NCBI GenBank assembly: GCA_013176395.1
Contig: JABMLP010000018.1
Location: forward strand, 1,116,001 to 1,180,000
From: Venturia oleaginea
Taxonomy: Eukaryota; Ascomycota; Dothideomycetes; Venturiales; Venturiaceae
Direction of reading: 5' to 3'
Length of the DNA: 64,000 nucleotides
In this document: positions 9,001-64,000 of the stretch, one piece after another
How positions within the stretch are numbered: position 1 is the first letter of the stretch
How the letters are laid out: each line of letters opens with the position of its first letter
The notes under the pieces: model-generated
Seen by the model: the letters and a program-made list of their open reading frames with translations, nothing else
Told to the model about the DNA's origin: nothing
Databases searched by the model: none
Position numbers and translations under genes: made by a program

Positions 9001-9813
9001 CTACGTAAGTTCTGTACATTTAGTCAGAACGACTGGGTCGAGCTCCTGCCTATTGCTCAAATATGCCTCGATAATAGACCAAACCAAGCTACGGGCCTAT
9101 CGCCTTTCTTCTTAACCCACGGTTATAACATTGAGCATATAGGAACTGTTGAAGCTCCCCAGGAAACCCCTAAGAATCCAAAAGAAAAAGCACAAGATCT
9201 TATAGCAAAATTGAAGGACGCACAAGAATGGGCAGAAACGTCAATGGTATCAGCTCAGCAACAGCAAGAATACTACTCTAATAGAGATCGTGCTCCGGAT
9301 GACTCTTTTAAAGTGGGAGACAAAGTCTGGCTCAACCTAAAGAACGTAAAAACCCTACGTCCTTGTAAGAAACTAGACTGGATTCATGGGAAGTATACAG
9401 TTACACGAGTTATCAACTCAATGTCTTACGAGCTTGATACACCCAGAGGAATCCACAACCGATTTCATACGTCTTTACTTAGGAGAGCTGGCACAGATCC
9501 CCTACCTTCACAAATACAAGATAATACACAGCCGCCTCCTATAGTAACTGAACAAGGAGACGAGGAATACGGTATCGAGGCTATTCTAGCCGCAAGATGG
9601 CGCCGGCGAGGTCGACAACAAACGCGAGAAGTCTTAGTTAAGTGGGTAGGCTACGTTGATCCTACGTGGGAACCCCTTAGCGAACTCCAACAAACTACAG
9701 CTCTGGACGCTTTTGAAAGTGCCTACGGCAACGTTCTTGAAAACGACGGACCTATACTACGCCCTCAGAGACTACGCTCACATCGATCTACAAGAGAGGG
9801 GGGGAGGGGATAA
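6028..9813 (+). CDS. pol: Chromovirus Pol polyprotein with chromodomain
   Basis: About 1261 residues counted from TTG 6028. The real N-terminus is probably made by -1 frameshifting from gag. Domains in order: aspartic protease with LLDNGSS (D59-N-G, where DSG or DTG is usual); reverse transcriptase about 290-430 with YLDD at 411-414; RNase H with D562 in the EPDASG motif; integrase HHCC zinc finger H815, H822, C852, C855; integrase core D885, D946, E983; chromodomain from about 1181 to 1228 (ending VKWVGYVDPTWEPLSEL). It copies the element RNA into DNA and inserts it. Chromodomains of this class bind methylated histone H3 and steer insertion to heterochromatin. The stop TAA 9811-9813 touches the 3' LTR. 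Confidence 0.93.
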   Translation: MSKESIERVNSILNSNKDTDSHRSRIEKEWKQFRPKMLSRLFYTNTIVNDIYSLKTLLDNGSSCYASINEEKASQMDLEVLPISPRTIGGVLKEEGQTQVTKIAKLNLDLGGLICNAFAYIVPGQFEDLLLGRPFLKDTKAVINESKGTLTFANGISIRDAKFEDKLDIQQVAPVRFHRLVTSTLEKIKDASRVFAVTLRDIDIALKPKVPLTTEQILELLPKRFHKYAAVFDPKRAERLPPHRPGIDHEIPIEEGKPLPWGPLYGMGREQLLVLRRTLTELLDKGFIRESKSVAASPVLFVKKPGGGLRFCVDYRALNAITRKDRYPLPLVKETLLTLARAKYLSKLDVNAAFHKIRIATGDEFKTAFRTRYGLFEWLVTPFGLTGAPASFQRSINYILRRYLDEFCSAYLDDIVIYSSKNLKDHEEKTEKILQSCLNAGLYLDIRKCEFNTKRVKYLGFVIDTETGLHMDPEKIKAIKEWERPTTLRGVRGFLGFTNFYRDFVKDNSTIREPLVRLTKKNTPFLWGKEQEESFQKLKAEFCKEPVLSALDEDKPTRVEPDASGWASGAVLSQKDELGNWKPCAFFSTKHLPAECNYDIHDKELMAIVKALVHWTSELLSLSKPFIILTDHKNLEKFMVKRELNERQMRWAQILAKFNFKLGYRPGSESVVPDALTRRDQDLPKDIQDPRIVERTRTLLPPKLWINVLEDKTPAREEAAQENAQEVDKEPIPFIQNPFLSGDLRDRWETALEGDLDYRRIFQSVLKQDRQFPSKLKVPTSIGDCKVENNQLYYRDRIWLPSYEPLLTGVIQEIHDSVLSGHPGREATIAILSRQFYWPGFAQDIRQFIRNCDVCGRTSVWRDKKKGLLKPLPVPSRIWQDISVDFIVELPESQRCTRLCVITDRLGKGTILFPVPKEQFGAEGFAKLFMQNYVRLHWLPRSLVSDRDTRFVNAFWKEVCHLLKIERRLSTAYHPETDGSTKERNQEVEAYLRKFCTFSQNDWVELLPIAQICLDNRPNQATGLSPFFLTHGYNIEHIGTVEAPQETPKNPKEKAQDLIAKLKDAQEWAETSMVSAQQQQEYYSNRDRAPDDSFKVGDKVWLNLKNVKTLRPCKKLDWIHGKYTVTRVINSMSYELDTPRGIHNRFHTSLLRRAGTDPLPSQIQDNTQPPPIVTEQGDEEYGIEAILAARWRRRGRQQTREVLVKWVGYVDPTWEPLSELQQTTALDAFESAYGNVLENDGPILRPQRLRSHRSTREGGRG
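9792..9810 (+). other. Polypurine tract
   Basis: An unbroken run of 19 purines, AAGAGAGGGGGGGAGGGGA, ends one codon before the 3' LTR. It also encodes the last residues of Pol. It should prime plus-strand DNA synthesis. Confidence 0.85.
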
Positions 9814-10123
9814 TGTTAAGGGATGGAATCCTTCTCTCTAGCTTATCCATGACTGGATTTCCAATTGTTCTCTTGTTATTCTGCAAGCTGTCATGTTCTA
9901 TTTTGCAAGCTGTCATGTTCTATTTCGCAAGCTGCCATGTTCTATTTTGCAAGCTGTCACGTTTCCATTTAAAGATACTTTCTAGAAGGATCTATTGTAA
10001 GAGGAGGATTATATATACGAGCTATCCTTCCTGTATTTACACTTTCTTCTCTGTACTTAGATACTTGAAATATAAGCTGTCTTCCCTCACTTGCGAAACA
10101 CCTTTGAGGGTTGAACTCTTACA
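9814..10123 (+). repeat. 3' LTR of chromovirus
   Basis: 310 bp with TGTTAAGG...CTTACA ends. It has four 22-bp units instead of five. It differs from the 5' LTR at two bases just downstream of the TATA box (TATATACGAG for TATATACTAG, and CTGTATTT for CTGTACTT). It inserts into the gene fragment that follows at 10124. Confidence 0.92.
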
Positions 10124-10312
10124 CAAAGAAAGCATGCACGGCAAGAAGAAAATGAAATTGCACGAATGAATTTGGCTAAAGTTGCTCCAGTTGTTCACAC
10201 GATGGAACTGGCCTCAGATGAGGAATGGGTTGTTGTTGCTGAACCATATACGTCAGAGCATGCACCTCTAACGTTTCCTGTGTTTAAACGTAAGAAACTG
10301 ACGACGTTGTAG
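10124..10312 (+). pseudogene. C-terminal fragment of an interrupted gene, probably from a transposon
   Basis: The frame beginning at 10127 is open for 61 codons to TAG 10310-10312. It reads as a basic, Arg/Lys/Glu-rich stretch (RQEENEIARMNLAKVAPVV) and ends KRKKLTTL. Its upstream part is missing because the chromovirus LTR sits directly before it. I do not recognise the protein. The style suggests the tail of a transposase. It is followed by about 260 bp of AT-rich sequence with AATGACAC motifs repeated at 10417 and 10459. Confidence 0.45.
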
Positions 10313-10578
10313 TCGAAATATGGTTTGGTATCGATGGCCAAGATGTGGAGTTATTTTTGTTGTTTACTTCGCATTTTTAGCGTTATTGTTGGTCACGTGT
10401 GTTTATCGCAAATATGAAAATGACACTATTGACACTTGTATACTACTCAATTATGTAAATGACACCATTTGTGTGGATTGAATGGCCTTGGCATTATTGT
10501 TTTGGTGTCAAATGAGTGATTTGAGTGGATTTTGAGTGGATTTTGAGAAGTGAAGACTGTAGTGAAATTCGTTGTTGA

Positions 10579-11220
10579 GCTGATGGTTTTTGTTTGGGTA
10601 GAGCTGGATGCCCTAACACGGCATCGGGGGACCAATGGTGTGCCTTCACATCGACGAATATAGGCATTGATAGACAGGAATATGGCGTAGGTGTTCCCGT
10701 CGTAGCAGGCACGGATTTGGTCATCGTTTGTAAGTTCCATCTTCTCCTATCGTGCCGGCTAATTCGAAAGATGGTCGATTAACAAAGGGTAGACAAATAC
10801 GACGAAGCGACAAAACAATTTGGTCAAACGCTTTCGATTGATGGGAAGATCGTCTCAGAACAGTCGTTGGCTATTGGGAAGGGAAACCGGTTCAATACCG
10901 CTGTCGAGGTGCAAGCTGGTTTCTCGGGGACTATTCTCGCTCATAGTAAGTTCTTCCTGTCTTTTTCCTGGGAAGAAAGTGGGAACTTACTTGTTATAGC
11001 ATACACAAACAACACCTTCACGTTCGCAGCTGCGATTCCTGGATTTCCCAATACGCTCACCATACAGAAAGGCATCGTTGCTTCTAAGCCTGTGACTGTG
11101 GATGGAGGGAAGACATGGACGGTTGATCAGATCATGATTCCTGATAGTAAGTATGGGAGCTCTGGTTTCATCCCCGCCTAGAACCATTTCATCGTCATTG
11201 TGATCAAGTTGAAGACATAG
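10579..11220 (+). CDS. Unrecognised protein gene, four inferred exons, start unresolved
   Basis: Three good introns connect one reading frame. Exon A ends at 10729 (GTAAGT donor, acceptor TAG 10790-10792). Exon B is 10793-10945 (donor GTAAGT, acceptor ATAG 10996-10999). Exon C is 11000-11146. A short fourth exon, 11182-11220, would add NHFIVIVIKLKT, but its intron would be only 35 nt. Without it the protein ends at TAG 11179-11181. The product is beta-strand-like (DQWCAFTSTNIGID, TLSIDGKIVSEQS, YTNNTFTFAAAIPGFPNTLTIQKG). The frame opens at 10579 after a stop, and no ATG is in frame, so a first exon is missing or was not found. I do not recognise the family. It may be a 5'-truncated pseudogene. 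Confidence 0.5.
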
Positions 11221-11879
11221 AGTCATTTCATGCCGAGGATGGTGAGCGAGCTGGAGAAACAAAGGGATCAAAGCGGCGGATAGAATGAGATTGTGAAAAA
11301 CAAAGAAACAGGAAGGCCAGTCGATTCAAGCCGACTCACTAGCGTTTCCTCAAACAACGATAAACATGTTTGTTTCTTGATCAAGTCTCTTCCAAAGTAC
11401 ATAGAGGCGTCCCCGGTTGTTTCGAAATCTTCTCGCAGGTCATAAACATTCTCTTTAGTGGACGCGCAATCAACTCGTTGCTCTGTTTCCGATCTGCTTT
11501 CTGTTTTGCGGCCGGGTTAGCGTTCAGGCCGTATAAACTGCCTACCAACTCCAATATACCAATGACTCAATCTCACAAAAGAACATCGGATCCTTCGCAA
11601 TAATCAACTGAATACTTCTTCCACATCTATTCCTATCCGCACTATGAAAGCTTCCTCAATTGCGTTGTAGGCACTTATTAAATTCCGCTCTCTCCTCCGT
11701 TGATTCAGGGTAGATAAGTACTGTAGGAACTGCACGCCTAAATCAACATCAGCATCATCTTCCAGATCTATCACTCTTCCAAACTAAGCCTCTTCTTCAA
11801 CCTTTCCTCTCATCAAACATCAGTGCCAATATCAGCACCGACAGTACCGACCAGTCAGCCAATCAATCAATCGATCACA

Positions 11880-12245
11880 ATGCTTTTCTCAACCATCCTC
11901 GCCATCCTCTTTACCACCGCTTTCGCAACACCAATCCCTCAACCCCAACGCCAACAGGGCTCCTACGACGTAGGGGGTGCCTTTGGTAATCTTATCTCAG
12001 AGGGTGCACACCAAGCCGGTCACCTCACCGGAGATATCGGTATGTCAACTCAACAATCTCTCCCCTGCCTTGCATCAATACTGATCAAGTTTTTAGTCAA
12101 CGGTGTAGCGGCTGTTCCCAAGGCTGCAGCAGGAGGGTTGGCAGGTCTTATGGATGCCACGACGGGCATCATGAAGGGGACTGATAATGCGATCGGGTGG
12201 GGGAACCATGGTAGCCAGGGAACATCTGGTGAGAGAAGATTTTAG
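11880..12245 (+). CDS. Small secreted protein, Gly/Ala-rich
   Basis: Two exons, 11880-12039 and 12097-12245, with a 57-nt intron (GTATGT donor, TTTTTAG acceptor), give 102 residues. The N-terminus MLFSTILAILFTTAFATPIPQPQ is a clear signal peptide, probably cut near ATP. The mature part has no cysteines and carries Gly/Ala stretches (GGAFGNLISEGAHQAGHL, VAAVPKAAAGGLAGLMDATTGIMKG) that look amphipathic. ATG 11880 follows a TCACA context and is the natural start. The function is unknown. Size and secretion would be compatible with an effector or a surface-active protein, but nothing in the sequence proves that. Confidence 0.75.
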   Translation: MLFSTILAILFTTAFATPIPQPQRQQGSYDVGGAFGNLISEGAHQAGHLTGDIGMSTQQSLPCLASILIKFLVNGVAAVPKAAAGGLAGLMDATTGIMKGTDNAIGWGNHGSQGTSGERRF

Positions 12246-12613
12246 AGGCCTCCACCTGGGTGTTAGGTGATGATATGGTGATCTAGACGCATTGATGTCT
12301 GATGCCATGGTTACGGGTCGGTTTGGTGATTCGGGCTGTAGTTCGGATATTCTCTTCATCTGTTTCGTAAATTTATGAGAGCTGTGGTGTCGGAGACATT
12401 GGAGGCTTGGGAAGGTGAGGATTTCATCACGATAGTATTTGGGCTTGGAGAAGTTTGCGTATTATGAAATATTTGTTCTTAGTGTTATTATTTCTTTAGT
12501 CAGGTTCCAGTCGCACACTCCTATTCCAATTATTCTTCCTGCGATCTACGGATCATTAGCAAAGGTCACAAAAAACATGCCTGCGGATCATTAGTAAACA
12601 TTTACACAAATCA

Positions 12614-13887
12614 TCAGAGAAGGTCCATACCCATCACGTCAGCCATCCCCATGTCGTTATGTTCACCACCATTTCTCATCGGATGTGTCTTGAGATCATA
12701 CACACTCTTCATACTCAATACATCCCCTTTCTTCAGCTTGAGGTCCGGTGGACATGGGGTCATTGACACAATCGTCTCGTCGTTGTTGGAACCGCCCTTG
12801 CCGTACACGGCATTGGACTCGCAGATCTCCTTGTCATTGTTGAGCAGGATCATTTTAGACCCTCCATCGTGCAGATGCGGAGCTGCATTACATGTCAGTG
12901 TATCAAGAAGGCAGGTCAGAGGAAAGGGAAGTGCATACACGTAGAAACGATAGTGGTATCAGCCGTGATTGGGTATTTATCGCTTTCTGTGACAGCGACG
13001 CCATTCGGATCTAGCTTTATGACAATTGCTCCAGGGTATTTTCGGTCTGCAGGACATCCGGTCACGGATATCAGTGTTGCTGCTGCGTCCCGCATACTTT
13101 CTTTTCCCGGGACATATTCGAGGTCAAAGGTGAAGTAGACCGTCTGGTTCGCCTCATTGTAATTCACCAGATCAACCTGATTAATGATTTTATCCCCTTT
13201 CCCAAGATAATAGCCGGTGTTTGCGCTGCCATCACTTGAGGTAAACCTGACACTGGAGCCGAGTGAATCATCTCCGTGGGCGAGGAATTCAGATCCAAAC
13301 TCCAACGGGGAGGCTTTCTGTGCCTTGGCACATCTGTTGACTGGAAGATTTGAGTTTTTGGATAGATCGCGGTTGACAATGTGGTGAACATAAATGCCAC
13401 TCGCTGGACCGGCTTCCTTTCCATCCTCGAATCGAATTGACGTCTTGCCGGCTAAGACGGTGCAGTCTGAACACAAACCATCTGAGACGATGTCTAGGAA
13501 TGCTTGGCCCTTCGGGTCCAGCGATTTGGTCATGGATTCTGGTCGTGGTTCCTATAGGACATTAGCCTCGGTTGACAACCTGATAGGCTACCAACATACA
13601 TTTTTACCTGCCAAAGCATAGGGGCCGTAGGTTGCTAACAGTCTTTTGGCCGTCTTTCTCAACCGAGGCTGCGACTCCTCTACTTTTGAGAGTTGGGCTT
13701 TGGGAAGTGCAGCAATGATGGATTCGACTGAGAAGGTGGCATTGGACTTCTTCAATGCAGCGAGTAATGGTGATATCGGCGAATCGACAGACGCAGACGC
13801 AGACGCATGCGCATGTTCGTGTCTTGGTTGAACTGGATTTGCTGATACAACCGCCAATGGCAGGACAAAACAGAGAATGTTCTTCAT
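12614..13887 (-). CDS. Secreted SURNod19-like protein
   Basis: Three exons (13600-13887, 12939-13551, 12614-12882) give 389 residues. The introns are 48 and 56 nt, and their phases are fixed by keeping the frame (exon 1 ends AGKN, exon 2 starts EPRPES). MKNILCFVLPLAVVSANP is a signal peptide. The C-terminal half has HLHDGGSKMILLNNDKEICES, VSMTPCPPDLKLKKGDVLSMKSVYDL and a Met-rich GMADVMGMDL end, which resembles the stress-up-regulated Nod19 domain. An internal VHHIVNRD and several cysteines fit an extracellular fold that may bind metal. Residue 23 is His here and Gln in the right-arm copy (base 13819). The family call is from memory of motif style and needs a profile search. Confidence 0.6.
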
Positions 13888-14133
13888 TTTCAGATGTAGA
13901 GATGAGGTTGGTATAACGATTGATCTGCTAGTCTGAAGCAACAGCCATATTTATAAGATACATCTGAATTCGCAAGTCGGAGTCGATGGATCGGCCAGTC
14001 GGCTCTTTCCCTGAATGACAGTTCTACCTACATAGTACTTCCTATGTTGTTCCTGGCTTGTGGAGGTGGTTAGTGGTCTTGGCCTGGTCTTCGTGTTCGC
14101 TATCTTGTTCGCTTAGCGAGGGATGCGGGAAGT

Positions 14134-14205
14134 TGTTTATTATACTTATAGATTGATGCCAAACCCAAGATGTTTATTATACTTAGATTGATGCCAAACC
14201 CAAGA
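14134..14205. repeat. Two-copy tandem repeat of 37 and 35 bp
   Basis: Units 14134-14170 and 14171-14205 share TGTTTATTATACTTA and GATTGATGCCAAACCCAAGA; the second lacks two bases (TA). It lies in the divergent promoter region between the SURNod19-like gene and the poly(A)-polymerase gene. Confidence 0.85.
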
Positions 14206-14511
14206 TGGCACCTTGAAAAGCAAGTCGCTGAATAATGGAGGGAGGTCCGAGGTAGTACAGGTACTGGCAGGTAGACAAGAGAGACACCAGACAAATGGTT
14301 TGATATCACAAAACATGTCGGACACCTCGAGCCTCGGGATCAAGGAATGGCCTTGTACAAAGTAATATCGTACTTACGATAACGGATCGATTTTGTCCGT
14401 TTGTCGGTTCTTGGCAAATGAAGGCCATGGCATGGATCCCAACAGCTCGCGTACTGTGGTAGACTGCACTGCGATGCGACTGCTCAGGTACCGCATGCTC
14501 ATGACTGCACG

Positions 14512-16177
14512 TGACTAAGATATTCATGGGCCGGTATGATGATCACGTGACCGAAAGTTGAGCGGTACTAATGAGATGTCTTACCCGTGGACTACCCGTC
14601 AGACATTTCTCGAATCAGCAACACTTCACAGTCCCAACACCCCGTCGACCTTCGCCTCCACCTCTGCCGCAATCAAAGCGATTCGCACTGTGAGTAAAAT
14701 CAGTTCGCCCCATTGCGAAATCCGTCTTCTGACTAACCATCTCTAGCCATCACTTTCAGACGAAACACCACTCATCTGACATCATGACAGATTCTTATCG
14801 CGGCAGCCGCTATAATGGCGACTCCTACCAACCACGTCCTCGCTCACCTTCTCCGCGCCGCGACGACATGTATCGCTTTGGCGCCAGCAATTCACGAGCC
14901 GACCATTACAGTGTCTCCAACCATGGCCGTGGCGATTTCAGCTTTCGCAATGAATCCCACCAGACCCAGTGGCCGACCGGGCCACGAGCCGAGCACAATC
15001 GTCCCAACAGAAATCAAAATAGGAACAGGACTGGTCCAGGCAATCGCGGTGGCCGCGGAGCCAGATGGCAGCCTAGAGGATCGAAAGCTGCGAACGAGCG
15101 AAAAATTCTAAATACTGGCATGGATCGCGACATCACTCCAGAACGCCTGGAGGGAATGACACAAGGCGCACTAATATTCAACCCAGATCAAGAAGAGTCT
15201 GACTCAGAGATCCAAGAAGAAAGTGAGAAGCAAGATGACTCTGAAGAAGGACCCTCCAAGAAACGCATCAGGACAGCGCAAGTCGAGGCCGATGGCGACG
15301 AAAAACCAAAATGGTCCAATCCAGATCCCTACTACTCACTTCCACCCGTTCTTGAGGACGCAAACGCAAAGAAGAAGGATGTCGTTGAGCTCATCAGAAA
15401 GGCTAAGATCACTGCCGAAAAGGACAAGGAAGACGCCACAAATGCTGTTGCGCAGAACGACGATTTCATCTCTTTCGCCATGGACGAGGACGAAGAAGAT
15501 CACATTTCAATCTCGAGTGACGACAGCTCTGACATTGTTGAAATACAAGCTCCCGTCCAGGCCTCAGCCGCCTCCAATTCGGTCCCCCCATTCAGCCATC
15601 TTACCAACTTCCACCCACTTCTGGCAAATACACCGGCTGCTACAGGTGTCCGCCCGACCCCAAACGTCGACGTCCGACGCGAAACTGACACTTGGCCGCC
15701 CAAAACCAACCACGAGGCTGTCAATCGACCTCAACAACGAGATACTTCCTACAAGCAGCATGATACGAAGCGGAAACGCAACAACACAGTCAATGACCTG
15801 GCGCGAGACTGGGTTGAGAACAGATATGAGCATGCAGTTCCATGGCTCAGGGAGGACCACTCGGACCTCAAGTCTACCGCTGTCTGGCTTCACAAGGAGA
15901 TCTGCGACTTCTATGATTTTGTCAAACCAACGGAATACGAACACGCTATTCGCAAGAACTGTGTTGATCGTATTGCCCGTGCCTTGAGCAGGGACTACCC
16001 AGATTTCGATCTTCGCGCCTTTGGCTCTTACGCTTATGGCATATATCTTCCCACAGCTGATATGGATCTCGTTTTTATCTCTCGTCGTTACCAGCAAACA
16101 GGCATTCCAGATTTTCACCCAAGCTTTAAACAACTGAACAGGGTTCTGGCATCTTTGCGTAAGGCCGGCATCACAGC
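14512..16177. other. Segment missing from the right arm
   Basis: These 1666 bases are absent between right-arm positions 58889 and 58890. The joint reads ATGACTGCACG|CGACTATGG with no shared base at the break. It removes the proximal promoter and the first 464 codons of the poly(A)-polymerase gene. Confidence 0.95.
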
Positions 16178-16945
16178 CGACTATGGCTCTCAGGTTATCG
16201 CCAAAGCAAAGGTCCCCATCGTTAAGTTCGTGGATCGGTTGACCGGCTTGAAGGTTGATATATCTTTCGAGAACATCACCGGCATAACTGCACTCTCAAG
16301 CTTCGATGCGTGGAAAGCACAATATCCCCAATTCACGGTGCTGGTCACACTGATCAAACAGTTCCTTTTGATGCGAGACCTCAACGAGGTGCATACCGGT
16401 GGTCTTGGTGGATTTTCTGTCGCGTGTCTTGTCGTCAGCATGCTTCAACACTCGCCTGACATCCAGAGCGGAAATCCGCCAACTCTTGGTGCTTTGTTAT
16501 TACGCTTCCTCAAGTTATATGGAAGTGACTTCAATATGACATCCCTTGGTATTAGCGTCAATCCGCCCAAGTACATCCCAAAGGTACGTGAAGAGCCTCG
16601 GACACACAAATAACAATGTATAACAAGGTCCATACTAATTTTTCTCAGAATGTGTACAACAAGAGCTACGGAAGAGCCAAGTGGCTCATTCATGACCCCC
16701 ACAATGCAGATAATGACGTGTCCGGCGGATCGTCTCAGGCTGAGCTAATTGCAGACATGTTTTACGAGGCGTACCATATCCTCAGAGATCTCATGGAGCT
16801 CCTTGGTCATGCTGGACCAACTATACGCAAGGGCCGAAGTATCCTTCATCCTATCTTCGGTGGTAATTACCAGTCCTTCGTCGATCAGCGGGAGCAGCTC
16901 CAGGAGGTCTACGATCGAATGCAAGTGCAAGGATACTTCTCCTGA
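14784..16945 (+). CDS. Non-canonical poly(A) polymerase, Trf4/Trf5/Cid14 type
   Basis: Two exons, 14784-16583 and 16649-16945, with a 65-nt phase-0 intron (GTACGT, TACTAAT branch, TCTCAG), give 698 residues. The first 330 residues are low-complexity, with RS/RGG-like stretches (GNRGGRGARW) and acidic runs. The nucleotidyltransferase core has FGSYAYGIYLPTADMDL (G414-S415, catalytic D426 and D428) and a third acidic residue D492 in KVDISF. The PAP-associated domain follows (TGGLGGFSVACLVVSMLQ). Such enzymes add short A tails to nuclear RNAs in the TRAMP complex and hand them to the exosome. The start lies after a CATC context. This is the only complete copy in the window, since the right-arm copy is truncated. 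Confidence 0.88.
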
Positions 16946-18191
16946 TCGAGCTTCGCGTTGACAATTTGCATCGTTTTGAATGGTGTTCTTACGGGTTTGT
17001 ACCACGACTCGGACACAAGTCACACTTCACCGCGGTTGGGAGTGGGCCTTGTCCTTGGGGAAGGCGTTTGGGCGGCACAACTACTAACAACGGATATACC
17101 CTGTATGAACAGCGGATGGCAGCTTTTGATTTCTTGTTGTTTTATTGTAGTGGCATCCCAATGCTCGTAGGAATTCCATGGTCAGTCACAGCGCATCTGT
17201 GTTCTCTATTCAAGCTGACTTTTCACAGAATGGCGCAGACGATGTCTGGTAAGGTAATGATGGATGCAACATGCGGCCTCTGATTCACGTCAGCTGGGAG
17301 CCGTGACTGATCAGGTTTGTCTGATATTGCATTGTATCACGTCCTCACCCCAAGAGCTTGATTCTGCTGTAACATGTCTTAACACTGATTTAGGGTCTTC
17401 CCGAGTCCTTCAATCGTATACACTAGTGTAACAATATACGTCCACAGACTGTAAACAAAGTCGACCCTACTGACACTTTTCCTGAAGCGCCGCAGTCAAG
17501 GACAGCCTCGCTTGGGCTGCTGGACTAGCAATGTGCTATCACCTGTGATTATGGTCGAAGGAACAGTGTGCTCTTTTACAACGCTCCTTTGACTCGATCC
17601 ATCGCTTGCCTGCAATACTATAGGCTTCATGACTAACTTCCAGCAAACTGTGGACATCTGAGGGCAAATCTGAGGACACTTGAGAGAATGACTGTGGAAA
17701 ATTGCCACTCCATTTTCTCTTCAGACAATACCAAATATCCCTTGATATTTGTATGGTACTGAACTTGAACATCACTCGCTCGTCGGCTTCCGCAAGGGAG
17801 CTCTTGACTTGTGGGGCCTTTTCTCATCCTTACTTTCGCCTGCGCGGTGGGATTGGGAAGAGGATTGTTTCTACGCTACTATCGAATATAATGTATCTCC
17901 TTGGACATTTTATTAGCGAGTCAAGGCCATGTTTGAATGACTGTTATGCCCTTTGTACGGTGGCATTGCATTTTTGTCCCTGCATCTGCATCTTGCAGCC
18001 TAGACCCCACCACCTACAACACAACGCCTCCAGGCACCGGCCATTGAAAAGGCCTGTAATCGAAAGGGTCCCTCAACCGTGAAGTGGAATCATACAAGTA
18101 GCCCCAGAAAAGGCAACATAAAACGATCATCAGCCGAACCATAATCTCTTCTTTATTCTACCTATTCCATCAGCGCCGCGGCAAGAAAAAC
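16946..18191. other. Intergenic region without recognised gene
   Basis: About 1.25 kb between the poly(A)-polymerase stop and the macro-domain start. Only short reading frames without recognisable features are present. The last 100 bp before 18192 are C/T-rich, as in fungal promoters. Confidence 0.6.
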
Positions 18192-19040: not shown

Positions 19041-19660
19041 GGTTTATGTAAAGGAGAGTGTAAGAGGATGTGTAGCGTGTAGCTCAAGGTCAATTATGAT
19101 AGGACGAGCTGGATGCTGAAATCTTGGGCTTTTTATCCAAAGCAGCACGACTTTTCTGGGCGCGCAATATCAGGAGTGCTACTATACGAGTACAAGAAGC
19201 GTGATGAGAGGAGCGAAGAATCTCGTGGTGTTGGTTGTTCATAAACAAAAGTATTTCGTTCATCACAGCGTAGCGAGGCGTTCAACTCACTAACCTGTTT
19301 CTAATTGTCTGGAAGCCAAACATATCGTTGGTTTTAACTCCTTTAGCGCGATATTGACATCGATATTTTCCTGGCAGTTTCATCTCAAAACTTCATCAGG
19401 AGTTCACCGCAATCAATCTCGAATCGAAGATGTTGATTCGGATTTCAGGTGCTGTCGAAGGGTAGAGAATTGGGAACCCCACTGTGAATGCTATAATAGG
19501 TTGGATTGTCCCTTATTCGTGAAGCGGAGGTCAATCAACACTTATGAAGAACTCAAATCTATGAATTGGCTCCAGCGTGTGAAATCAATTAATCTAGGGC
19601 ATAGATACGATGGCCACCGGTTTGTCGCGATTTACAATTCCAATCCACCTCAGGTAATTG
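19041..19660. other. Convergent intergenic region
   Basis: 620 bp between the 3' ends of the macro-domain gene and the histidine kinase gene. I see no gene here; a 106-codon frame in it has no recognisable features. Confidence 0.6.
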
Positions 19661-29530: not shown

Positions 29531-29596
29531 TATATCAGTACATGTTTATATATTGTAACTACCTTCTGCCACTCAGCGGCACATAACAGCTCGCCT

Positions 29597-39275: not shown

Positions 39276-39319
39276 TCTATTACAACCCCCGTCAACTACG
39301 CTCTTCCTATCTACTTCCC

Positions 39320-45470: not shown

Positions 45471-45536
45471 AGGCGAGCTGTTATGTGCCGCTGAGTGGCA
45501 GAAGGTAGTTACAATATATAAACATGTACTGATATA

Positions 45537-55100: not shown

Positions 55101-55406
55101 ATGGAACTTTCGGTTGTTCTTATGGATATCGAGATGCCTGGTACGTTGACTGAGCGTCGCTAACGCTAATATTCGACAGTACTTACGGAAACAGTTATGG
55201 ACGGTCTGGAATGCGCCCGAGAAATTCGAGAACTGCAAAAGTCTGGCGAGATTGTGTCGCACGTGCCTATCATGGCGGTGTCAGCCAATGCCAGAAGTGA
55301 GCAGATGATGATCGCAAGGGAGGCTGGAATGGATGATGCTATAGCGAAACCTTTTCGCATTGCAGAGTTGTTGCCTAAGATTGAGATGTTGGCTAGACGC
55401 TGGTGA
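52185..55406 (+). CDS. Hybrid sensor histidine kinase, right-arm copy
   Basis: Mirror of 19661-22882. The exons are 52185-52676, 52726-53037, 53089-53185, 53236-53270, 53327-53694, 53744-53768, 53821-54231, 54281-54307, 54363-54667, 54719-54914, 54978-55140 and 55195-55406. The 880-residue product differs from the left copy at one residue (Thr for Ile, base 54811) in the linker ahead of the receiver domain. All catalytic motifs are kept. Confidence 0.9.
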
Positions 55407-56026
55407 CAATTACCTGAGGTGGATTGGAATTGTAAATCGCGACAAACCGGTGGCCATCGTATCTATGCCCTAGATTAATTGATTTCACACGCTGGAGCCA
55501 ATTCATAGATTTGAGTTCTTCATAAGTGTTGATTGACCTCCGCTTCACGAATAAGGGACAATCCAACCTATTATAGCATTCACAGTGGGGTTCCCAATTC
55601 TCTACCCTTCGACAGCACCTGAAATCCGAATCAACATCTTCGATTCGAGATTGATTGCGGTGAACTCCTGATGAAGTTTTGAGATGAAACTGCCAGGAAA
55701 ATATCGATGTCAATATCGCGCTAAAGGAGTTAAAACCAACGATATGTTTGGCTTCCAGACAATTAGAAACAGGTTAGTGAGTTGAACGCCTCGCTACGCT
55801 GTGATGAACGAAATACTTTTGTTTATGAACAACCAACACCACGAGATTCTTCGCTCCTCTCATCACGCTTCTTGTACTCGTATAGTAGCACTCCTGATAT
55901 TGCGCGCCCAGAAAAGTCGTGCTGCTTTGGATAAAAAGCCCAAGATTTCAGCATCCAGCTCGTCCTATCATAATTGACCTTGAGCTACACGCTACACATC
56001 CTCTTACACTCTCCTTTACATAAACC
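55407..56026. other. Convergent intergenic region, mirror of 19041-19660
   Basis: No gene seen. Confidence 0.55.
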
Positions 56027-56875
56027 TCATAGCTCCACCGACCCATCGGTCGAATCAGCAATCTCACCATAAACATCCGCCCACTGCAAATGCCCCCACT
56101 TCTCAGGCTGCTCCACAGCTTCCACCCAATATTTCATGGCTAACACGCATTGCGCGGCCCACCTCGCCTCACTGACTCTTCCAACACCAGTCGCGAGAGG
56201 TGTCATAAGGATACTCTCAATCCGGGACCCAGCATCAGGAGCACTCCGATTATGATGATCAATGGCACAAAGCATAGCCCACACACAATCAACAACAACC
56301 TCCTTATCCCACCTCACCTCCCTCGGAACACGGATCGTAGGACACACCAGAACAAATTTACAACCGTGTTTATGCTCTTTCCCTTCTTCCTCTTCCCCTA
56401 CCACCCCTTCCTTCCTACGTGTCTTCGCAAGCTCAAACCAACCCTCATCCCTCCCCACCCCAATAACAGTACAACTCCCCACAGGCGCATACCCCCTCCA
56501 CCGTCCATACAACACCCTCTGCACCTCCCGCGTAACCCACTGATACACCCTCCCACTGACATCCATGGGATTAGGACTCAACAACACACTGATCGCATCA
56601 TCGAACGCTCCATCCATGAATGCGTAGCTATTAGCTGGGGAAACGATGGCGTCGAATTTCTCGGTCGGAGGGAGAAGGGCGAGATAACAGTTTTGTATGT
56701 TTATTGTTGTTTTGGAGTGGAGGGTGAGGAAGTACTTTGTTACTGCGTCTTGGAAGGCTTGGGCGTCGCGTTGGAAGCGGCAGAGGAGGGTTATGCTTGG
56801 GAGTTTGGCGCTGGTCTTGGTCGTGGTCTGGTCTTGGTTGTGGATGCCATTGTTGTTATTATTGTCGATACTCAT
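56027..56875 (-). CDS. Macro-domain protein, right-arm copy
   Basis: Mirror of 18192-19040 with an identical 282-residue product. Confidence 0.82.
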   Translation of the reverse strand: MSIDNNNNNGIHNQDQTTTKTSAKLPSITLLCRFQRDAQAFQDAVTKYFLTLHSKTTINIQNCYLALLPPTEKFDAIVSPANSYAFMDGAFDDAISVLLSPNPMDVSGRVYQWVTREVQRVLYGRWRGYAPVGSCTVIGVGRDEGWFELAKTRRKEGVVGEEEEGKEHKHGCKFVLVCPTIRVPREVRWDKEVVVDCVWAMLCAIDHHNRSAPDAGSRIESILMTPLATGVGRVSEARWAAQCVLAMKYWVEAVEQPEKWGHLQWADVYGEIADSTDGSVEL

Positions 56876-58121
56876 GTTTTTCTTGCCGCGGCGCTGATGG
56901 AATAGGTAGAATAAAGAAGAGATTATGGTTCGGCTGATGATCGTTTTATGTTGCCTTTTCTGGGGCTACTTGTATGATTCCACTTCACGGTTGAGGGACC
57001 CTTTCGATTACAGGCCTTTTCAATGGCCGGTGCCTGGAGGCGTTGTGTTGTAGGTGGTGGGGTCTAGGCTGCAAGATGCAGATGCAGGGACAAAAATGCA
57101 ATGCCACCGTACAAAGGGCATAACAGTCATTCAAACATGGCCTTGACTCGCTAATAAAATGTCCAAGGAGATACATTATATTCGATAGTAGCGTAGAAAC
57201 AATCCTCTTCCCAATCCCACCGCGCAGGCGAAAGTAAGGATGAGAAAAGGCCCCACAAGTCAAGAGCTCCCTTGCGGAAGCCGACGAGCGAGTGATGTTC
57301 AAGTTCAGTACCATACAAATATCAAGGGATATTTGGTATTGTCTGAAGAGAAAATGGAGTGGCAATTTTCCACAGTCATTCTCTCAAGTGTCCTCAGATT
57401 TGCCCTCAGATGTCCACAGTTTGCTGGAAGTTAGTCATGAAGCCTATAGTATTGCAGGCAAGCGATGGATCGAGTCAAAGGAGCGTTGTAAAAGAGCACA
57501 CTGTTCCTTCGACCATAATCACAGGTGATAGCACATTGCTAGTCCAGCAGCCCAAGCGAGGCTGTCCTTGACTGCGGCGCTTCAGGAAAAGTGTCAGTAG
57601 GGTCGACTTTGTTTACAGTCTGTGGACGTATATTGTTACACTAGTGTATACGATTGAAGGACTCGGGAAGACCCTAAATCAGTGTTAAGACATGTTACAG
57701 CAGAATCAAGCTCTTGGGGTGAGGACGTGATACAATGCAATATCAGACAAACCTGATCAGTCACGGCTCCCAGCTGACGTGAATCAGAGGCCGCATGTTG
57801 CATCCATCATTACCTTACCAGACATCGTCTGCGCCATTCTGTGAAAAGTCAGCTTGAATAGAGAACACAGATGCGCTGTGACTGACCATGGAATTCCTAC
57901 GAGCATTGGGATGCCACTACAATAAAACAACAAGAAATCAAAAGCTGCCATCCGCTGTTCATACAGGGTATATCCGTTGTTAGTAGTTGTGCCGCCCAAA
58001 CGCCTTCCCCAAGGACAAGGCCCACTCCCAACCGCGGTGAAGTGTGACTTGTGTCCGAGTCGTGGTACAAACCCGTAAGAACACCATTCAAAACGATGCA
58101 AATTGTCAACGCGAAGCTCGA
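56876..58121. other. Intergenic region, mirror of 16946-18191
   Basis: No gene seen. Confidence 0.55.
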
Positions 58122-58969
58122 TCAGGAGAAGTATCCTTGCACTTGCATTCGATCGTAGACCTCCTGGAGCTGCTCCCGCTGATCGACGAAGGACTGGTAA
58201 TTACCACCGAAGATAGGATGAAGGATACTTCGGCCCTTGCGTATAGTTGGTCCAGCATGACCAAGGAGCTCCATGAGATCTCTGAGGATATGGTACGCCT
58301 CGTAAAACATGTCTGCAATTAGCTCAGCCTGAGACGATCCGCCGGACACGTCATTATCTGCATTGTGGGGGTCATGAATGAGCCACTTGGCTCTTCCGTA
58401 GCTCTTGTTGTACACATTCTGAGAAAAATTAGTATGGACCTTGTTATACATTGTTATTTGTGTGTCCGAGGCTCTTCACGTACCTTTGGGATGTACTTGG
58501 GCGGATTGACGCTAATACCAAGGGATGTCATATTGAAGTCACTTCCATATAACTTGAGGAAGCGTAATAACAAAGCACCAAGAGTTGGCGGATTTCCGCT
58601 CTGGATGTCAGGCGAGTGTTGAAGCATGCTGACGACAAGACACGCGACAGAAAATCCACCAAGACCACCGGTATGCACCTCGTTGAGGTCTCGCATCAAA
58701 AGGAACTGTTTGATCAGTGTGACCAGCACCGTGAATTGGGGATATTGTGCTTTCCACGCATCGAAGCTTGAGAGTGCAGTTATGCCGGTGATGTTCTCGA
58801 AAGATATATCAACCTTCAAGCCGGTCAACCGATCCACGAACTTAACGATGGGGACCTTTGCTTTGGCGATAACCTGAGAGCCATAGTCGCGTGCAGTCAT
58901 GAGCATGCGGTACCTGAGCAGTCGCATCGCAGTGCAGTCTACCACAGTACGCGAGCTGTTGGGATCCAT
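58122..58969 (-). pseudogene. Truncated poly(A) polymerase with a new in-frame N-terminus
   Basis: Right-arm counterpart of the Trf4/Cid14-type gene. The 1666-bp deletion removes its promoter and the first 464 codons, including the GS motif and the catalytic D426 and D428; only the third Asp (D492 of the full protein) stays. Across the joint at 58889/58890 the frame is open from former promoter sequence. An ATG at 58969 starts 27-28 new residues (MDPNSSRTVVDCTAMRLLRY...) that run in frame into the remaining core. Exons 58484-58969 and 58122-58418 would encode about 260 residues with the PAP-associated domain. It cannot be a catalytically competent transferase. Whether it is expressed is unknown. 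Confidence 0.8.
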
Positions 58970-59195
58970 GCCATGGCCTTCATTTGCCAAGAACCGACAA
59001 ACGGACAAAATCGATCCGTTATCGTAAGTACGATATTACTTTGTACAAGGCCATTCCTTGATCCCGAGGCTCGAGGTGTCCGACATGTTTTGTGATATCA
59101 AACCATTTGTCTGGTGTCTCTCTTGTCTACCTGCCAGTACCTGTACTACCTCGGACCTCCCTCCATTATTCAGCGACTTGCTTTTCAAGGTGCCA

Positions 59196-59267
59196 TCTTG
59201 GGTTTGGCATCAATCTAAGTATAATAAACATCTTGGGTTTGGCATCAATCTATAAGTATAATAAACA
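59196..59267. repeat. Two-copy tandem repeat, right-arm copy
   Basis: Mirror of 14134-14205. Confidence 0.85.
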
Positions 59268-59513
59268 ACTTCCCGCATCCCTCGCTAAGCGAACAAGATA
59301 GCGAACACGAAGACCAGGCCAAGACCACTAACCACCTCCACAAGCCAGGAACAACATAGGAAGTACTATGTAGGTAGAACTGTCATTCAGGGAAAGAGCC
59401 GACTGGCCGATCCATCGACTCCGACTTGCGAATTCAGATGTATCTTATAAATATGGCTGTTGCTTCAGACTAGCAGATCAATCGTTATACCAACCTCATC
59501 TCTACATCTGAAA

Positions 59514-60787
59514 ATGAAGAACATTCTCTGTTTTGTCCTGCCATTGGCGGTTGTATCAGCAAATCCAGTTCAACCAAGACAAGAACATGCGCATGCGTCT
59601 GCGTCTGCGTCTGTCGATTCGCCGATATCACCATTACTCGCTGCATTGAAGAAGTCCAATGCCACCTTCTCAGTCGAATCCATCATTGCTGCACTTCCCA
59701 AAGCCCAACTCTCAAAAGTAGAGGAGTCGCAGCCTCGGTTGAGAAAGACGGCCAAAAGACTGTTAGCAACCTACGGCCCCTATGCTTTGGCAGGTAAAAA
59801 TGTATGTTGGTAGCCTATCAGGTTGTCAACCGAGGCTAATGTCCTATAGGAACCACGACCAGAATCCATGACCAAATCGCTGGACCCGAAGGGCCAAGCA
59901 TTCCTAGACATCGTCTCAGATGGTTTGTGTTCAGACTGCACCGTCTTAGCCGGCAAGACGTCAATTCGATTCGAGGATGGAAAGGAAGCCGGTCCAGCGA
60001 GTGGCATTTATGTTCACCACATTGTCAACCGCGATCTATCCAAAAACTCAAATCTTCCAGTCAACAGATGTGCCAAGGCACAGAAAGCCTCCCCGTTGGA
60101 GTTTGGATCTGAATTCCTCGCCCACGGAGATGATTCACTCGGCTCCAGTGTCAGGTTTACCTCAAGTGATGGCAGCGCAAACACCGGCTATTATCTTGGG
60201 AAAGGGGATAAAATCATTAATCAGGTTGATCTGGTGAATTACAATGAGGCGAACCAGACGGTCTACTTCACCTTTGACCTCGAATATGTCCCGGGAAAAG
60301 AAAGTATGCGGGACGCAGCAGCAACACTGATATCCGTGACCGGATGTCCTGCAGACCGAAAATACCCTGGAGCAATTGTCATAAAGCTAGATCCGAATGG
60401 CGTCGCTGTCACAGAAAGCGATAAATACCCAATCACGGCTGATACCACTATCGTTTCTACGTGTATGCACTTCCCTTTCCTCTGACCTGCCTTCTTGATA
60501 CACTGACATGTAATGCAGCTCCGCATCTGCACGATGGAGGGTCTAAAATGATCCTGCTCAACAATGACAAGGAGATCTGCGAGTCCAATGCCGTGTACGG
60601 CAAGGGCGGTTCCAACAACGACGAGACGATTGTGTCAATGACCCCATGTCCACCGGACCTCAAGCTGAAGAAAGGGGATGTATTGAGTATGAAGAGTGTG
60701 TATGATCTCAAGACACATCCGATGAGAAATGGTGGTGAACATAACGACATGGGGATGGCTGACGTGATGGGTATGGACCTTCTCTGA
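59514..60787 (+). CDS. Secreted SURNod19-like protein, right-arm copy
   Basis: Mirror of 12614-13887. The exons are 59514-59801, 59850-60462 and 60519-60787. It differs from the left copy at residue 23 (Gln for His, base 59582), just after the signal peptide. Confidence 0.6.
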
Positions 60788-61155
60788 TGATTTGTGTAAA
60801 TGTTTACTAATGATCCGCAGGCATGTTTTTTGTGACCTTTGCTAATGATCCGTAGATCGCAGGAAGAATAATTGGAATAGGAGTGTGCGACTGGAACCTG
60901 ACTAAAGAAATAATAACACTAAGAACAAATATTTCATAATACGCAAACTTCTCCAAGCCCAAATACTATCGTGATGAAATCCTCACCTTCCCAAGCCTCC
61001 AATGTCTCCGACACCACAGCTCTCATAAATTTACGAAACAGATGAAGAGAATATCCGAACTACAGCCCGAATCACCAAACCGACCCGTAACCATGGCATC
61101 AGACATCAATGCGTCTAGATCACCATATCATCACCTAACACCCAGGTGGAGGCCT

Positions 61156-61521
61156 CTAAAATCTTCTCTCACCAGATGTTCCCTGGCTACCATGGTTCCC
61201 CCACCCGATCGCATTATCAGTCCCCTTCATGATGCCCGTCGTGGCATCCATAAGACCTGCCAACCCTCCTGCTGCAGCCTTGGGAACAGCCGCTACACCG
61301 TTGACTAAAAACTTGATCAGTATTGATGCAAGGCAGGGGAGAGATTGTTGAGTTGACATACCGATATCTCCGGTGAGGTGACCGGCTTGGTGTGCACCCT
61401 CTGAGATAAGATTACCAAAGGCACCCCCTACGTCGTAGGAGCCCTGTTGGCGTTGGGGTTGAGGGATTGGTGTTGCGAAAGCGGTGGTAAAGAGGATGGC
61501 GAGGATGGTTGAGAAAAGCAT
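61156..61521 (-). CDS. Small secreted protein, Gly/Ala-rich, right-arm copy
   Basis: Mirror of 11880-12245. The exons are 61362-61521 and 61156-61304. The 102-residue product is identical. Confidence 0.75.
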   Translation of the reverse strand: MLFSTILAILFTTAFATPIPQPQRQQGSYDVGGAFGNLISEGAHQAGHLTGDIGMSTQQSLPCLASILIKFLVNGVAAVPKAAAGGLAGLMDATTGIMKGTDNAIGWGNHGSQGTSGERRF

Positions 61522-62180
61522 TGTGATCGATTGATTGATTGGCTGACTGGTCGGTACTGTCGGTGCTGATATTGGCACTGATGTTTGATGAGAGGAAAGG
61601 TTGAAGAAGAGGCTTAGTTTGGAAGAGTGATAGATCTGGAAGATGATGCTGATGTTGATTTAGGCGTGCAGTTCCTACAGTACTTATCTACCCTGAATCA
61701 ACGGAGGAGAGAGCGGAATTTAATAAGTGCCTACAACGCAATTGAGGAAGCTTTCATAGTGCGGATAGGAATAGATGTGGAAGAAGTATTCAGTTGATTA
61801 TTGCAAAGGATCCGATGTTCTTTTGTGAGATTGAGTCATTGGTATATTGGAGTTGGTAGGCAGTTTATACGGCCTGAACGCTAACCCGGCCGCAAAACAG
61901 AAAGCAGATCGGAAACAGAGCAACGAGTTGATTGCGCGTCCACTAAAGAGAATGTTTATGACCTGCGAGAAGATTTCGAAACAACCGGGGACGCCTCTAT
62001 GTACTTTGGAAGAGACTTGATCAAGAAACAAACATGTTTATCGTTGTTTGAGGAAACGCTAGTGAGTCGGCTTGAATCGACTGGCCTTCCTGTTTCTTTG
62101 TTTTTCACAATCTCATTCTATCCGCCGCTTTGATCCCTTTGTTTCTCCAGCTCGCTCACCATCCTCGGCATGAAATGACT
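61522..62180. other. Intergenic region, mirror of 11221-11879
   Basis: No gene seen in either arm. One arm difference lies here (A61805, T on the mirrored strand, against C11596), at a CpG site. Confidence 0.55.
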
Positions 62181-62822
62181 CTATGTCTTCAACTTGATCA
62201 CAATGACGATGAAATGGTTCTAGGCGGGGATGAAACCAGAGCTCCCATACTTACTATCAGGAATCATGATCTGATCAACCGTCCATGTCTTCCCTCCATC
62301 CACAGTCACAGGCTTAGAAGCAACGATGCCTTTCTGTATGGTGAGCGTATTGGGAAATCCAGGAATCGCAGCTGCGAACGTGAAGGTGTTGTTTGTGTAT
62401 GCTATAACAAGTAAGTTCCCACTTTCTTCCCAGGAAAAAGACAGGAAGAACTTACTATGAGCGAGAATAGTCCCCGAGAAACCAGCTTGCACCTCGACAG
62501 CGGTATTGAACCGGTTTCCCTTCCCAATAGCCAACGACTGTTCTGAGACGATCTTCCCATCAATCGAAAGCGTTTGACCAAATTGTTTTGTCGCTTCGTC
62601 GTATTTGTCTACCCTTTGTTAATCGACCATCTTTCGAATTAGCCGGCACGATAGGAGAAGATGGAACTTACAAACGATGACCAAATCCGTGCCTGCTACG
62701 ACGGGAACACCTACGCCATATTCCTGTCTATCAATGCCTATATTCGTCGATGTGAAGGCACACCATTGGTCCCCCGATGCCGTGTTAGGGCATCCAGCTC
62801 TACCCAAACAAAAACCATCAGC
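62181..62822 (-). CDS. Unrecognised protein gene, right-arm copy
   Basis: Mirror of 10579-11220, with the same splice signals and the same unresolved 5' end. Confidence 0.5.
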
Positions 62823-63088
62823 TCAACAACGAATTTCACTACAGTCTTCACTTCTCAAAATCCACTCAAAATCCACTCAAATCACTCATTTGACACCAAA
62901 ACAATAATGCCAAGGCCATTCAATCCACACAAATGGTGTCATTTACATAATTGAGTAGTATACAAGTGTCAATAGTGTCATTTTCATATTTGCGATAAAC
63001 ACACGTGACCAACAATAACGCTAAAAATGCGAAGTAAACAACAAAAATAACTCCACATCTTGGCCATCGATACCAAACCATATTTCGA

Positions 63089-63277
63089 CTACAACGTCGT
63101 CAGTTTCTTACGTTTAAACACAGGAAACGTTAGAGGTGCATGCTCTGACGTATATGGTTCAGCAACAACAACCCATTCCTCATCTGAGGCCAGTTCCATC
63201 GTGTGAACAACTGGAGCAACTTTAGCCAAATTCATTCGTGCAATTTCATTTTCTTCTTGCCGTGCATGCTTTCTTTG
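63089..63277 (-). pseudogene. C-terminal fragment of an interrupted gene, right-arm copy
   Basis: Mirror of 10124-10312, again directly next to the chromovirus LTR. Confidence 0.45.
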
Positions 63278-63587
63278 TGTAAGAGTTCAACCCTCAAAGG
63301 TGTTTCGCAAGTGAGGGAAGACAGCTTATATTTCAAGTATCTAAGTACAGAGAAGAAAGTGTAAATACAGGAAGGATAGCTCGTATATATAATCCTCCTC
63401 TTACAATAGATCCTTCTAGAAAGTATCTTTAAATGGAAACGTGACAGCTTGCAAAATAGAACATGGCAGCTTGCGAAATAGAACATGACAGCTTGCAAAA
63501 TAGAACATGACAGCTTGCAGAATAACAAGAGAACAATTGGAAATCCAGTCATGGATAAGCTAGAGAGAAGGATTCCATCCCTTAACA
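63278..63587 (-). repeat. 3' LTR of the mirrored chromovirus
   Basis: Mirror of 9814-10123: 310 bp, four 22-bp units, and the same two bases that separate the left 3' LTR from the left 5' LTR. Confidence 0.92.
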
Positions 63588-64000
63588 TTATCCCCTCCCC
63601 CCCTCTCTTGTAGATCGATGTGAGCGTAGTCTCTGAGGGCGTAGTATAGGTCCGTCGTTTTCAAGAACGTTGCCGTAGGCACTTTCAGAAGCGTCCAGAG
63701 CTGTAGTTTGTTGGAGTTCGCTAAGGGGTTCCCACGTAGGATCAACGTAGCCTACCCACTTAACTAAGACTTCTCGCGTTTGTTGTCGACCTCGCCGGCG
63801 CCATCTTGCGGCTAGAATAGCCTCGATACCGTATTCCTCGTCTCCTTGTTCAGTTACTATAGGAGGCGGCTGTGTATTATCTTGTATTTGTGAAGGTAGG
63901 GGATCTGTGCCAGCTCTCCTAAGTAAAGACGTATGAAATCGGTTGTGGATTCCTCTGGGTGTATCAAGCTCGTAAGACATTGAGTTGATAACTCGTGTAA
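63588..64000 (-). CDS. pol: Chromovirus pol, C-terminal part (runs off the right edge)
   Basis: Mirror of 9401-9813: the last 137 codons of Pol with the chromodomain and the polypurine tract. It has Ser where the left copy has Phe (base 63688) in the region after the chromodomain. The rest of the element lies beyond the window. Confidence 0.9.
   Translation of the reverse strand, partial: TRVINSMSYELDTPRGIHNRFHTSLLRRAGTDPLPSQIQDNTQPPPIVTEQGDEEYGIEAILAARWRRRGRQQTREVLVKWVGYVDPTWEPLSELQQTTALDASESAYGNVLENDGPILRPQRLRSHRSTREGGRG

Follow-up and report, generated by a model that had tools for sequence, protein, structure and literature searches.

The locus and its gene content

The stretch of DNA analysed here, called the window in the following, comprises 64,000 bp of the assembled genome of the filamentous fungus Venturia oleaginea (GCA_013176395.1; 46.08 Mb in 61 contigs) and corresponds to positions 1116001-1180000 of contig JABMLP010000018.1, abbreviated C10. 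As judged from a comparison of the window and ten added 10-kb pieces of flanking sequence per side (together C10:1016001-1280000) with themselves, the locus is an interstitial inverted triplication in the assembly: a unit made up of a 27.07-kb gene block, U, between two long terminal repeat (LTR) retrotransposons, X on the left and T1 on the right, is present in three copies in the order A(+) B(-) C(+), which together occupy C10:1087370-1185415 (98,046 bp; Table 1). All structural results are features of the assembly. With a 3-kb piece of the unit as a probe, three places and no more were found in the genome, all of them on C10, and a fourth copy or a haplotig elsewhere was rejected on the basis of this one probe. 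Both novel junctions occur once each, together with one left and one right flank, and a linear path must therefore pass U three times.

The pairing of neighbouring copies generates two palindromes. The one formed by B and C had been described in an earlier note on this DNA as a giant near-perfect palindrome reaching from 9401 to 64000, with a 524-bp spacer and arms distinguished by one 1666-bp deletion and four substitutions. Self-BLAST of the window pairs 16178-37271 with 58889-37796 (21,094 bp, 1 mismatch) and 9401-14517 with 64000-58884 (5,117 bp, 4 mismatches), leaving the spacer exactly as described; the count of differences also proved correct in a three-way alignment of the copies, which places the four substitutions at 20256, 13819, 11596, and 9713 of copy B. 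Three of the four mismatches of the shorter pairing appear in this alignment, while the fourth, by difference, falls into the 6-bp overlap at the deletion. The palindrome is larger than had been thought, as the pairing continues past both of the limits given, which merely reflect the window edge: with the flanks included, its arms measure 33,310 bp in B and 31,620 bp in C. The second palindrome is formed by A (C10:1087907-1119961) and B (C10:1153271-1121220), with arms of 32,055 and 32,052 bp, respectively, and a spacer of 1,258 bp. The arms show about one difference per 10,000 sites within U, and near-identity over 20-30 kb is not a matter of chance. No telomere repeat (TTAGGG/CCCTAA) was found in the terminal 500 bp at either end of contig C10.

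The two elements bordering the unit identify its original surroundings. The X element left of copy A is complete (C10:1082408-1087983), has 175-bp LTRs, is flanked by CACAT on both sides and belongs to a family with many genomic copies, while T1, a Ty3/gypsy-type element, is complete in copy C, where its LTRs measure 310 bp and a CTTTG target duplication lies on either side. Copy A at its left end and copy C at its right end should therefore be regarded as adjoining the native flanks. The last 524 bp of X are present in A and C only, and the outer 1.2 kb of T sequence in B and C only, the copy in B being assigned below to a second element, T2. The locus thus has single-copy flanks around three tandem copies, the second of which is inverted, and duplicated segments border the inverted triplicated one, which formally makes it a duplication-triplication/inversion-duplication (DUP-TRP/INV-DUP) with very short DUP parts; it is not classed as a product of origin-dependent inverted-repeat amplification (ODIRA), although it works in the manner of such a product.

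Table 1. Features of the triplicated locus. Positions refer to the window unless preceded by C10.
Feature	Position	Strand	Remarks
Copy A, left limit	C10:1087370		Outside the window; T1 of this copy starts at C10:1115058
Copy A, right end	1..3961	+	Internal part of T1, cut after ...GAAACC; matches 9180-5220 inverted
A/B junction	3961..3962		Interior of T1 abuts the exact TG terminus of the 5' LTR of another T copy; no microhomology
A/B palindrome spacer	3962..5219		1,258 bp; T sequence assigned to T2
T element of copy B, best read as T2/T1 chimera	3962..10123	+	Ty3/gypsy type; 5' LTR 3962-4293 (332 bp), 3' LTR 9814-10123 (310 bp)
Copy B	3962..37271	-	33,310 bp, inverted; flank comparison and three-way alignment
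Gene block U in copy B	10124..37194	-	27.07 kb; three genomic copies by 3-kb probe
Segment deleted from copy C	14512..16177		1666 bp, found in A and B; absent from C at 58889/58890, exact position uncertain by a few bp
TRF4/Cid14-like non-canonical poly(A) polymerase gene	14784..16613	+	609 amino acids; open in A and B
PAS/histidine kinase gene segments	20728..22401	-	PAS_3 above cut-off in 21327-21752; HisKA and a second PAS_3 just under
Alanine racemase N-terminal domain protein	23180..24103	+	Pfam match
BD-FAE hydrolase	25186..26370	+	Weak Pfam match, below curated cut-off
L-lactate dehydrogenase (cytochrome b2)	29824..31318	-	FMN_dh and Cyt-b5 in adjacent frames, taken as a single gene
PTR2/POT-family peptide transporter frame	32103..33026	-	Identical in A, B, and C
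SWIM-domain open reading frame	34062..35744	+	Dispersed transposon-like family, not a single-copy host gene
Terminal 77 bp of X in copy B	37195..37271	-	Cut at the centre of the LTR hairpin GAACCTCA/TGAGGTTC
B/C palindrome spacer	37272..37795	+	524 bp of X sequence running into copy C; closer to the X of A than to six other X copies
Copy C	37796..64000	+	Runs on to C10:1185415; self-comparison
T1 in copy C, first part	63278..64000	-	LTR and target-duplication comparison

To assess the gene content of U, 28 out of 55 open frames listed for window positions 9000-38000, each spanning 110 amino acids or more, were scanned against Pfam, which gave matches at seven loci of copy B, including one weak match below the cut-off and one dispersed transposon-like frame. 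The protein encoded by the TRF4-like gene is 85% identical to its counterpart in Venturia nashicola and 82% in V. effusa, with only 44% in the next named species, and its sole other match in the genome is a relative of 26% identity; of this gene, copy C retains only the part coding for residues 463-609. Other scored genomic matches of the PTR2 frame are at most 53% identical, and the three identical copies of this peptide transporter represent a candidate dosage change. The SWIM-domain frame has dozens of genomic relatives of more than 90% identity, some of them inside longer frames, and belongs to a young transposon-like family within the unit, and a small dispersed repeat of about 180 bp (35913-36095) has dozens of genomic matches at 98-100%. 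Many genomic copies of the T, X, and SWIM families are more than 90% alike, those of T and X mostly 99-100%. Given these near-identical repeats and the low number of substitutions that separate the triplicated copies, repeat-induced point mutation appears to be inactive here. Note that a further T copy lies to the right of the triplication (C10:1261075-1267216) and is flanked by unmatched 5-mers, without a target duplication; it may be recombinant, too.

Differences among the copies

The three-way alignment contains eight differences in columns 1-28072, which cover U and the inner part of T, and copy B is never the odd one. Copy A is odd at columns 868, 966-968, and 972 and nowhere else in this range, copy C at column 17019, the 1666-bp deletion, and columns 23456, 25679, and 27562, and no difference at all exists over the 16,046 bp in between (columns 973-17018). 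The sites at which A is odd lie at 36300-36404 of copy B. The 1666-bp segment occurs twice in the genome, in A and B, so the difference represents a deletion in C; an inserted repeat or transposon as its cause is ruled out by the same distribution. The chance of obtaining such a left/right split with no odd site in B is 9/6561 (0.0014), or 7/729 (0.0096) if the cluster in A is counted as one event; leaving out the deletion, the same formula yields 8/2187 or 6/243, giving an overall p of about 0.001-0.025 for a test on eight sites that was framed after the pattern had been seen. This 2:1 pattern is expected if an inverted dimer, consisting of two like copies, recombined with an unlike native copy, as integration of such a dimer would leave native alleles at the left of A and the right of C. 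The earlier note had suggested that gene conversion between the arms may keep them alike, but it need not be assumed to account for their likeness: the differences are few and fall into an ordered pattern.

The same allele split would, however, be produced if the chromosome carried a single copy of the unit, with the left part of A joined to the right part of C, while the other two copies resided on a free circle, a palindromic inverted dimer of some 66 kb that the assembler threaded into the contig. The identical 16,046-bp middle allows the left and right parts to be paired anew, two of the six possible pairings yield a native chromosome plus a circle of 65,889 bp, and the odd alleles of A-left and C-right make up exactly the native molecule, all with the same assembly graph. 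We consider this arrangement unlikely, since one contig runs through both palindromes, which normally requires spanning reads, and the circle would need upkeep at near-chromosomal copy number. Equally unlikely is its biological extension, a stable 66-kb circle, an intermediate of the type that the ODIRA model proposes, with genes for the peptide transporter and the lactate dehydrogenase as well as the only close TRF4-like genes that are still intact: as the native TRF4-like gene would be the one lost to the 1666-bp deletion, the native chromosome would then depend on the circle. Reads crossing 37272-37795, which had been suggested as a check, would not separate the integrated triplication from a free circle, because both contain that junction.

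The A/B junction and the T element of copy B

At the A/B junction, the T1 of copy A has lost the last ~1.24 kb that the T1 of copy C retains, and the sequence continues with the exact end of another T copy. This end was verified against 39 other T copies (40 of 751 candidates were scored), in which the match starts at exactly position 3962 in 21 cases, one base earlier in 11 and 3-12 bases earlier in the remaining 7. The T element that begins here in copy B encodes reverse transcriptase, RNase H, and integrase zinc-binding domains, with a chromodomain just under the cut-off and SH3 and integrase core domains below it. Its two LTRs differ: the outer one has 332 bp, while the inner one has the 310 bp also found in the remaining T1 LTR of A and in both T1 LTRs of C, and its 3' LTR is the same as that of T1. 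In an alignment of five T copies, the element of B differs from T1 by 19 substitutions, 15 of which are common to one or both of two other T copies; the last of these shared foreign sites is T position 5014 and the last private one 5241, beyond which three sites and the LTR type are T1-like. Over the region in which A, B, and C are comparable, the ten differences found in B only all lie in T (alignment columns 28073-31712), with none in the preceding 28 kb, a distribution with a probability of about 9e-10 if the differences were spread evenly.

The most plausible reading of the T element of copy B is thus a chimera formed by T1 and a second element, T2, the exact LTR end pointing to insertion or end-joining of T2 and the chimeric structure to its homologous recombination with T1. 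As an explanation of this junction, a simple inverted switch inside T1 was tried and rejected: the T of B differs from the T1 of C by 21 substitutions and a 22-bp insert and even from the shorter T1 of A by 11 substitutions, yet U contains no change private to B.

The B/C junction

In contrast to the first junction, that between B and C lies within X. The arm of B stops 77 bp into X, at the centre of the LTR hairpin, and copy C restarts 601 bp from the end of X, the only homology between the two points being CTC with a terminal mismatch. The spacer shares one base with A's own X that is absent from six other X copies, and a second such base is found in the adjoining arm; on these two bases, a separate insertion of X as the source of the spacer was rejected. 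A joining at a retroelement, one of the possible origins named in the earlier note, is thus supported, with X at the B/C and T at the A/B junction.

Both junctions might also have arisen in a single event of break-induced replication with iterative template switching, started at a break or at a half-integrated T2 complementary DNA in T1. T2 would have invaded T1 in inverted orientation, U would have been copied leftwards, and a switch at microhomology in X would have turned synthesis forward again to copy U, T1, and the right arm. Such an event covers the LTR end, which is exact and shows zero homology, as well as the chimera of T2 and T1, the lack of T2 in the T1 of C, and the poor microhomology in X, and accounts for the junctions as well as, or better than, the extrachromosomal origin proposed below. 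It also agrees with the available part of a study of human DUP-TRP/INV-DUP rearrangements (PMC10766186), in which most junctions show 0-4 bp of homology and one 47 bp. Nevertheless, this course appears rather doubtful to us, as it predicts private changes in all three copies, whereas B has none in U and the odd sites of A and C are split into left and right.

Inverted duplications are a known class of assembly artefact, and chimeric or fold-back reads have to be considered as a source of the structure, the more so as the assembly provides the only data. A fold-back artefact should consist of mirror-identical arms without private variation and lack a link to both flanks. The locus instead contains two independent junctions with different spacers, one of them at an exact LTR end with foreign T alleles, A and C each carry private changes, the T of B is foreign, and the flanks on both sides are unique, and no other contig contains U according to the 3-kb probe. 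An artefact is therefore highly improbable, and the argument of the earlier note that an asymmetric spacer and a clean deletion in one arm are hard to obtain from a fold-back read remains valid.

Other loci rich in T elements

A second large palindrome is found on contig C13 (98504-140795), with arms of 20.4 kb (98504-118896 and 120424-140795) and two inverted T copies at its centre, separated by a 1.5-kb spacer. The arms differ by ten substitutions, two outside the innermost LTRs and eight inside, where a 22-bp and a 1-bp length difference are also located. The right T has LTRs of 332 and 311 bp, the left T two of 332 bp, and neither is flanked by matching 5-mers. The arms contain X, T, and another repeated stretch also present at C10:1074723-1080108. 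A 3-kb piece of these arms is present in a third, near-identical copy on contig C37 (43619-46618), which could indicate a former triplication at C13 as well. As this is the second palindrome of the genome with T at its centre, such structures may repeatedly be seeded or reshaped by young LTR elements.

The C13 palindrome also bears on a third possible origin, the fusion of nearby inverted repeats, in which T2 nested in T1 would have provided 4.9-kb inverted repeats giving rise to an inverted duplication that was later healed by a second rearrangement in X. The arms of A and B indeed join in inverted T copies, as do those of C13 at a distance of 1.5 kb, where eight of the ten arm substitutions fall into the innermost LTR, and widely spaced inverted repeats are reported to yield inverted dimers and dicentrics in yeast (PMC10164571, in its available part). 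However, the T1 of C carries no scar of T2, which would have to have been present on one chromatid or homologue only, and all 12 sequenced clones in the same part of that paper had a terminal deletion, while the right flank is present here. This route is accordingly quite unlikely.

Further T loci show related arrangements. Three T LTR ends on the same strand of contig C34 (153162, 163173, and 173185) are spaced by 10,011 and 10,012 bp and probably represent a tandem array of a 10-kb unit. Close inverted pairs of T LTRs at C60:62334/63015, C53:8091/8771, C45:234493/235004, and C59:1837611/1838148 are possible centres of other palindromes. The 60 bases preceding a T LTR are identical on contigs C53 and C12, which represents either a shared segmental duplication or a redundant contig.

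Proposed origin of the triplication

Our preferred explanation of the locus, to which we give about an even chance, is an interstitial inverted triplication by replication template switching via an extrachromosomal intermediate, followed by erosion of the palindrome centres. Starting from an ancestor with a single X-U-T1 arrangement, nascent strands would have changed over to the opposite template at either side of U, generating an extrachromosomal hairpin-ended or inverted-dimer molecule, which would then have recombined into a native copy by a crossover inside U to give copies in forward, backward, and forward orientation. The palindrome centres would have been made asymmetric afterwards. 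At A/B, T2 may have inserted into the T1 of A in the same orientation as the T1 of B, turning T2 and the T1 of B into direct repeats, so that recombination between them could delete the original centre and leave the T2/T1 chimera; at B/C, a deletion inside X at ~3 bp of imperfect homology may have left the 524-bp spacer. We infer the intermediate, the order of these steps, and the erosion by retrotransposons from the junction sequences and the distribution of differences present in the assembly.

Precedents for these steps are contained in the available parts of the yeast and human literature. A plasmid intermediate has been put forward for inverted amplicons in humans in which two homologues are mixed at a ratio of 2:1 (PMC4689423), the same paper describes the deletion of a palindrome arm by recombination between repeats that are direct only after triplication, with a similar account of erosion in PMC10766186, and according to both papers palindromes are stabilised by wider spacing.

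Several points weigh against this explanation. The inverted repeats at ODIRA junctions are within ~100 bp of each other in the part of PMC10766183 available to us, and both spacers found here, with 524 and 1,258 bp, exceed this distance, requiring erosion steps without an independent trace; the deviation is expected if erosion occurred. In addition, no short inverted repeat remains at A/B, and ODIRA would require a replication origin within the unit. The T element of B is not a clean two-part chimera, as it agrees with T1 against another T copy, T3, at T positions 3250, 4229, 4340, 4915, and 4922, for example, and its T1-like end is marked by only three sites and the LTR type; T2 thus need not resemble T3 or the C13 copy along its whole length. 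There are only eight ordered differences, three of which lie within 105 bp and perhaps reflect one event, and the test on them was post hoc. Additional differences between A and C at columns 30675, 31973, and 32015 are located in the T1 part, for which B provides no vote, and are in keeping with the idea without testing it. Finally, most of the only close TRF4-like gene of the genome is lost through the deletion in C, and such a loss is more readily understood if it occurred later, in a copy that had become redundant, than if it were an old allele of the native locus.

Comparison with known systems

The template-switch or fold-back origin considered in the earlier note agrees with these results, while a broken dicentric or a lone palindrome does not, as the third copy outside the window makes the locus an interstitial inverted triplication. 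No account of such a fungal or lichen palindrome or inverted triplication, or of one in Venturia, was found among titles and the beginnings of abstracts, subscription journals being mostly uncovered. The published inverted triplications in the available parts of the cited papers were observed in yeast cultures under selection, in patients, and in cancer genomes and hardly show how such structures settle and decay in nature. The natural case presented here retains both junctions and features a retrotransposon as the probable agent widening one palindrome centre, a proposed stabilising step, and its allele pattern allows ordinary long reads to distinguish between an extrachromosomal intermediate and template switching in one pass.

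Judging from the accessible literature, the palindromes of the mammalian X and Y and of willow sex chromosomes likewise bear genes, and the arms of the mammalian ones are more than 99% alike. These palindromes are described as kept alike by gene conversion, whereas none need be assumed here, and the Venturia locus contains a third copy in addition. The DUP parts in human DUP-TRP/INV-DUP cases are far longer than those found here, where the copy-number steps consist of 524 bp of X doubled on the left, ~1.2 kb of T-family sequence doubled on the right, and U tripled. The same succession of steps is reported for the human PLP1 and MECP2 loci, with little or no junction homology (PMC10766186, in part), but the right DUP part of the fungal locus is the copy of a foreign element. 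The fused inverted repeats and dicentrics of yeast (PMC10164571, in part) share the inverted repeat pairs at the palindrome centres, but the fungal locus has no terminal deletion and its contig continues on both sides.

The yeast genes SUL1, GAP1, and DUR3 encode nutrient permeases. Their inverted triplications by ODIRA, as described in the available parts of PMC10766183, PMC4689423, and PMC10766186, likewise comprise three copies with the middle one inverted and palindromic junctions, and the presence of the permease gene PTR2 in the fungal unit parallels the nutrient permeases of the yeast cases. The allele split, seen at eight sites, is of the kind predicted by the dimer-integration model. 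The two systems differ in their spacers, which measure 524 and 1,258 bp here but tens of bp in yeast, in the position of both fungal junctions inside retrotransposons, one of them with a second element, and in their setting, an assembled genome of a filamentous fungus as opposed to chemostat selection.

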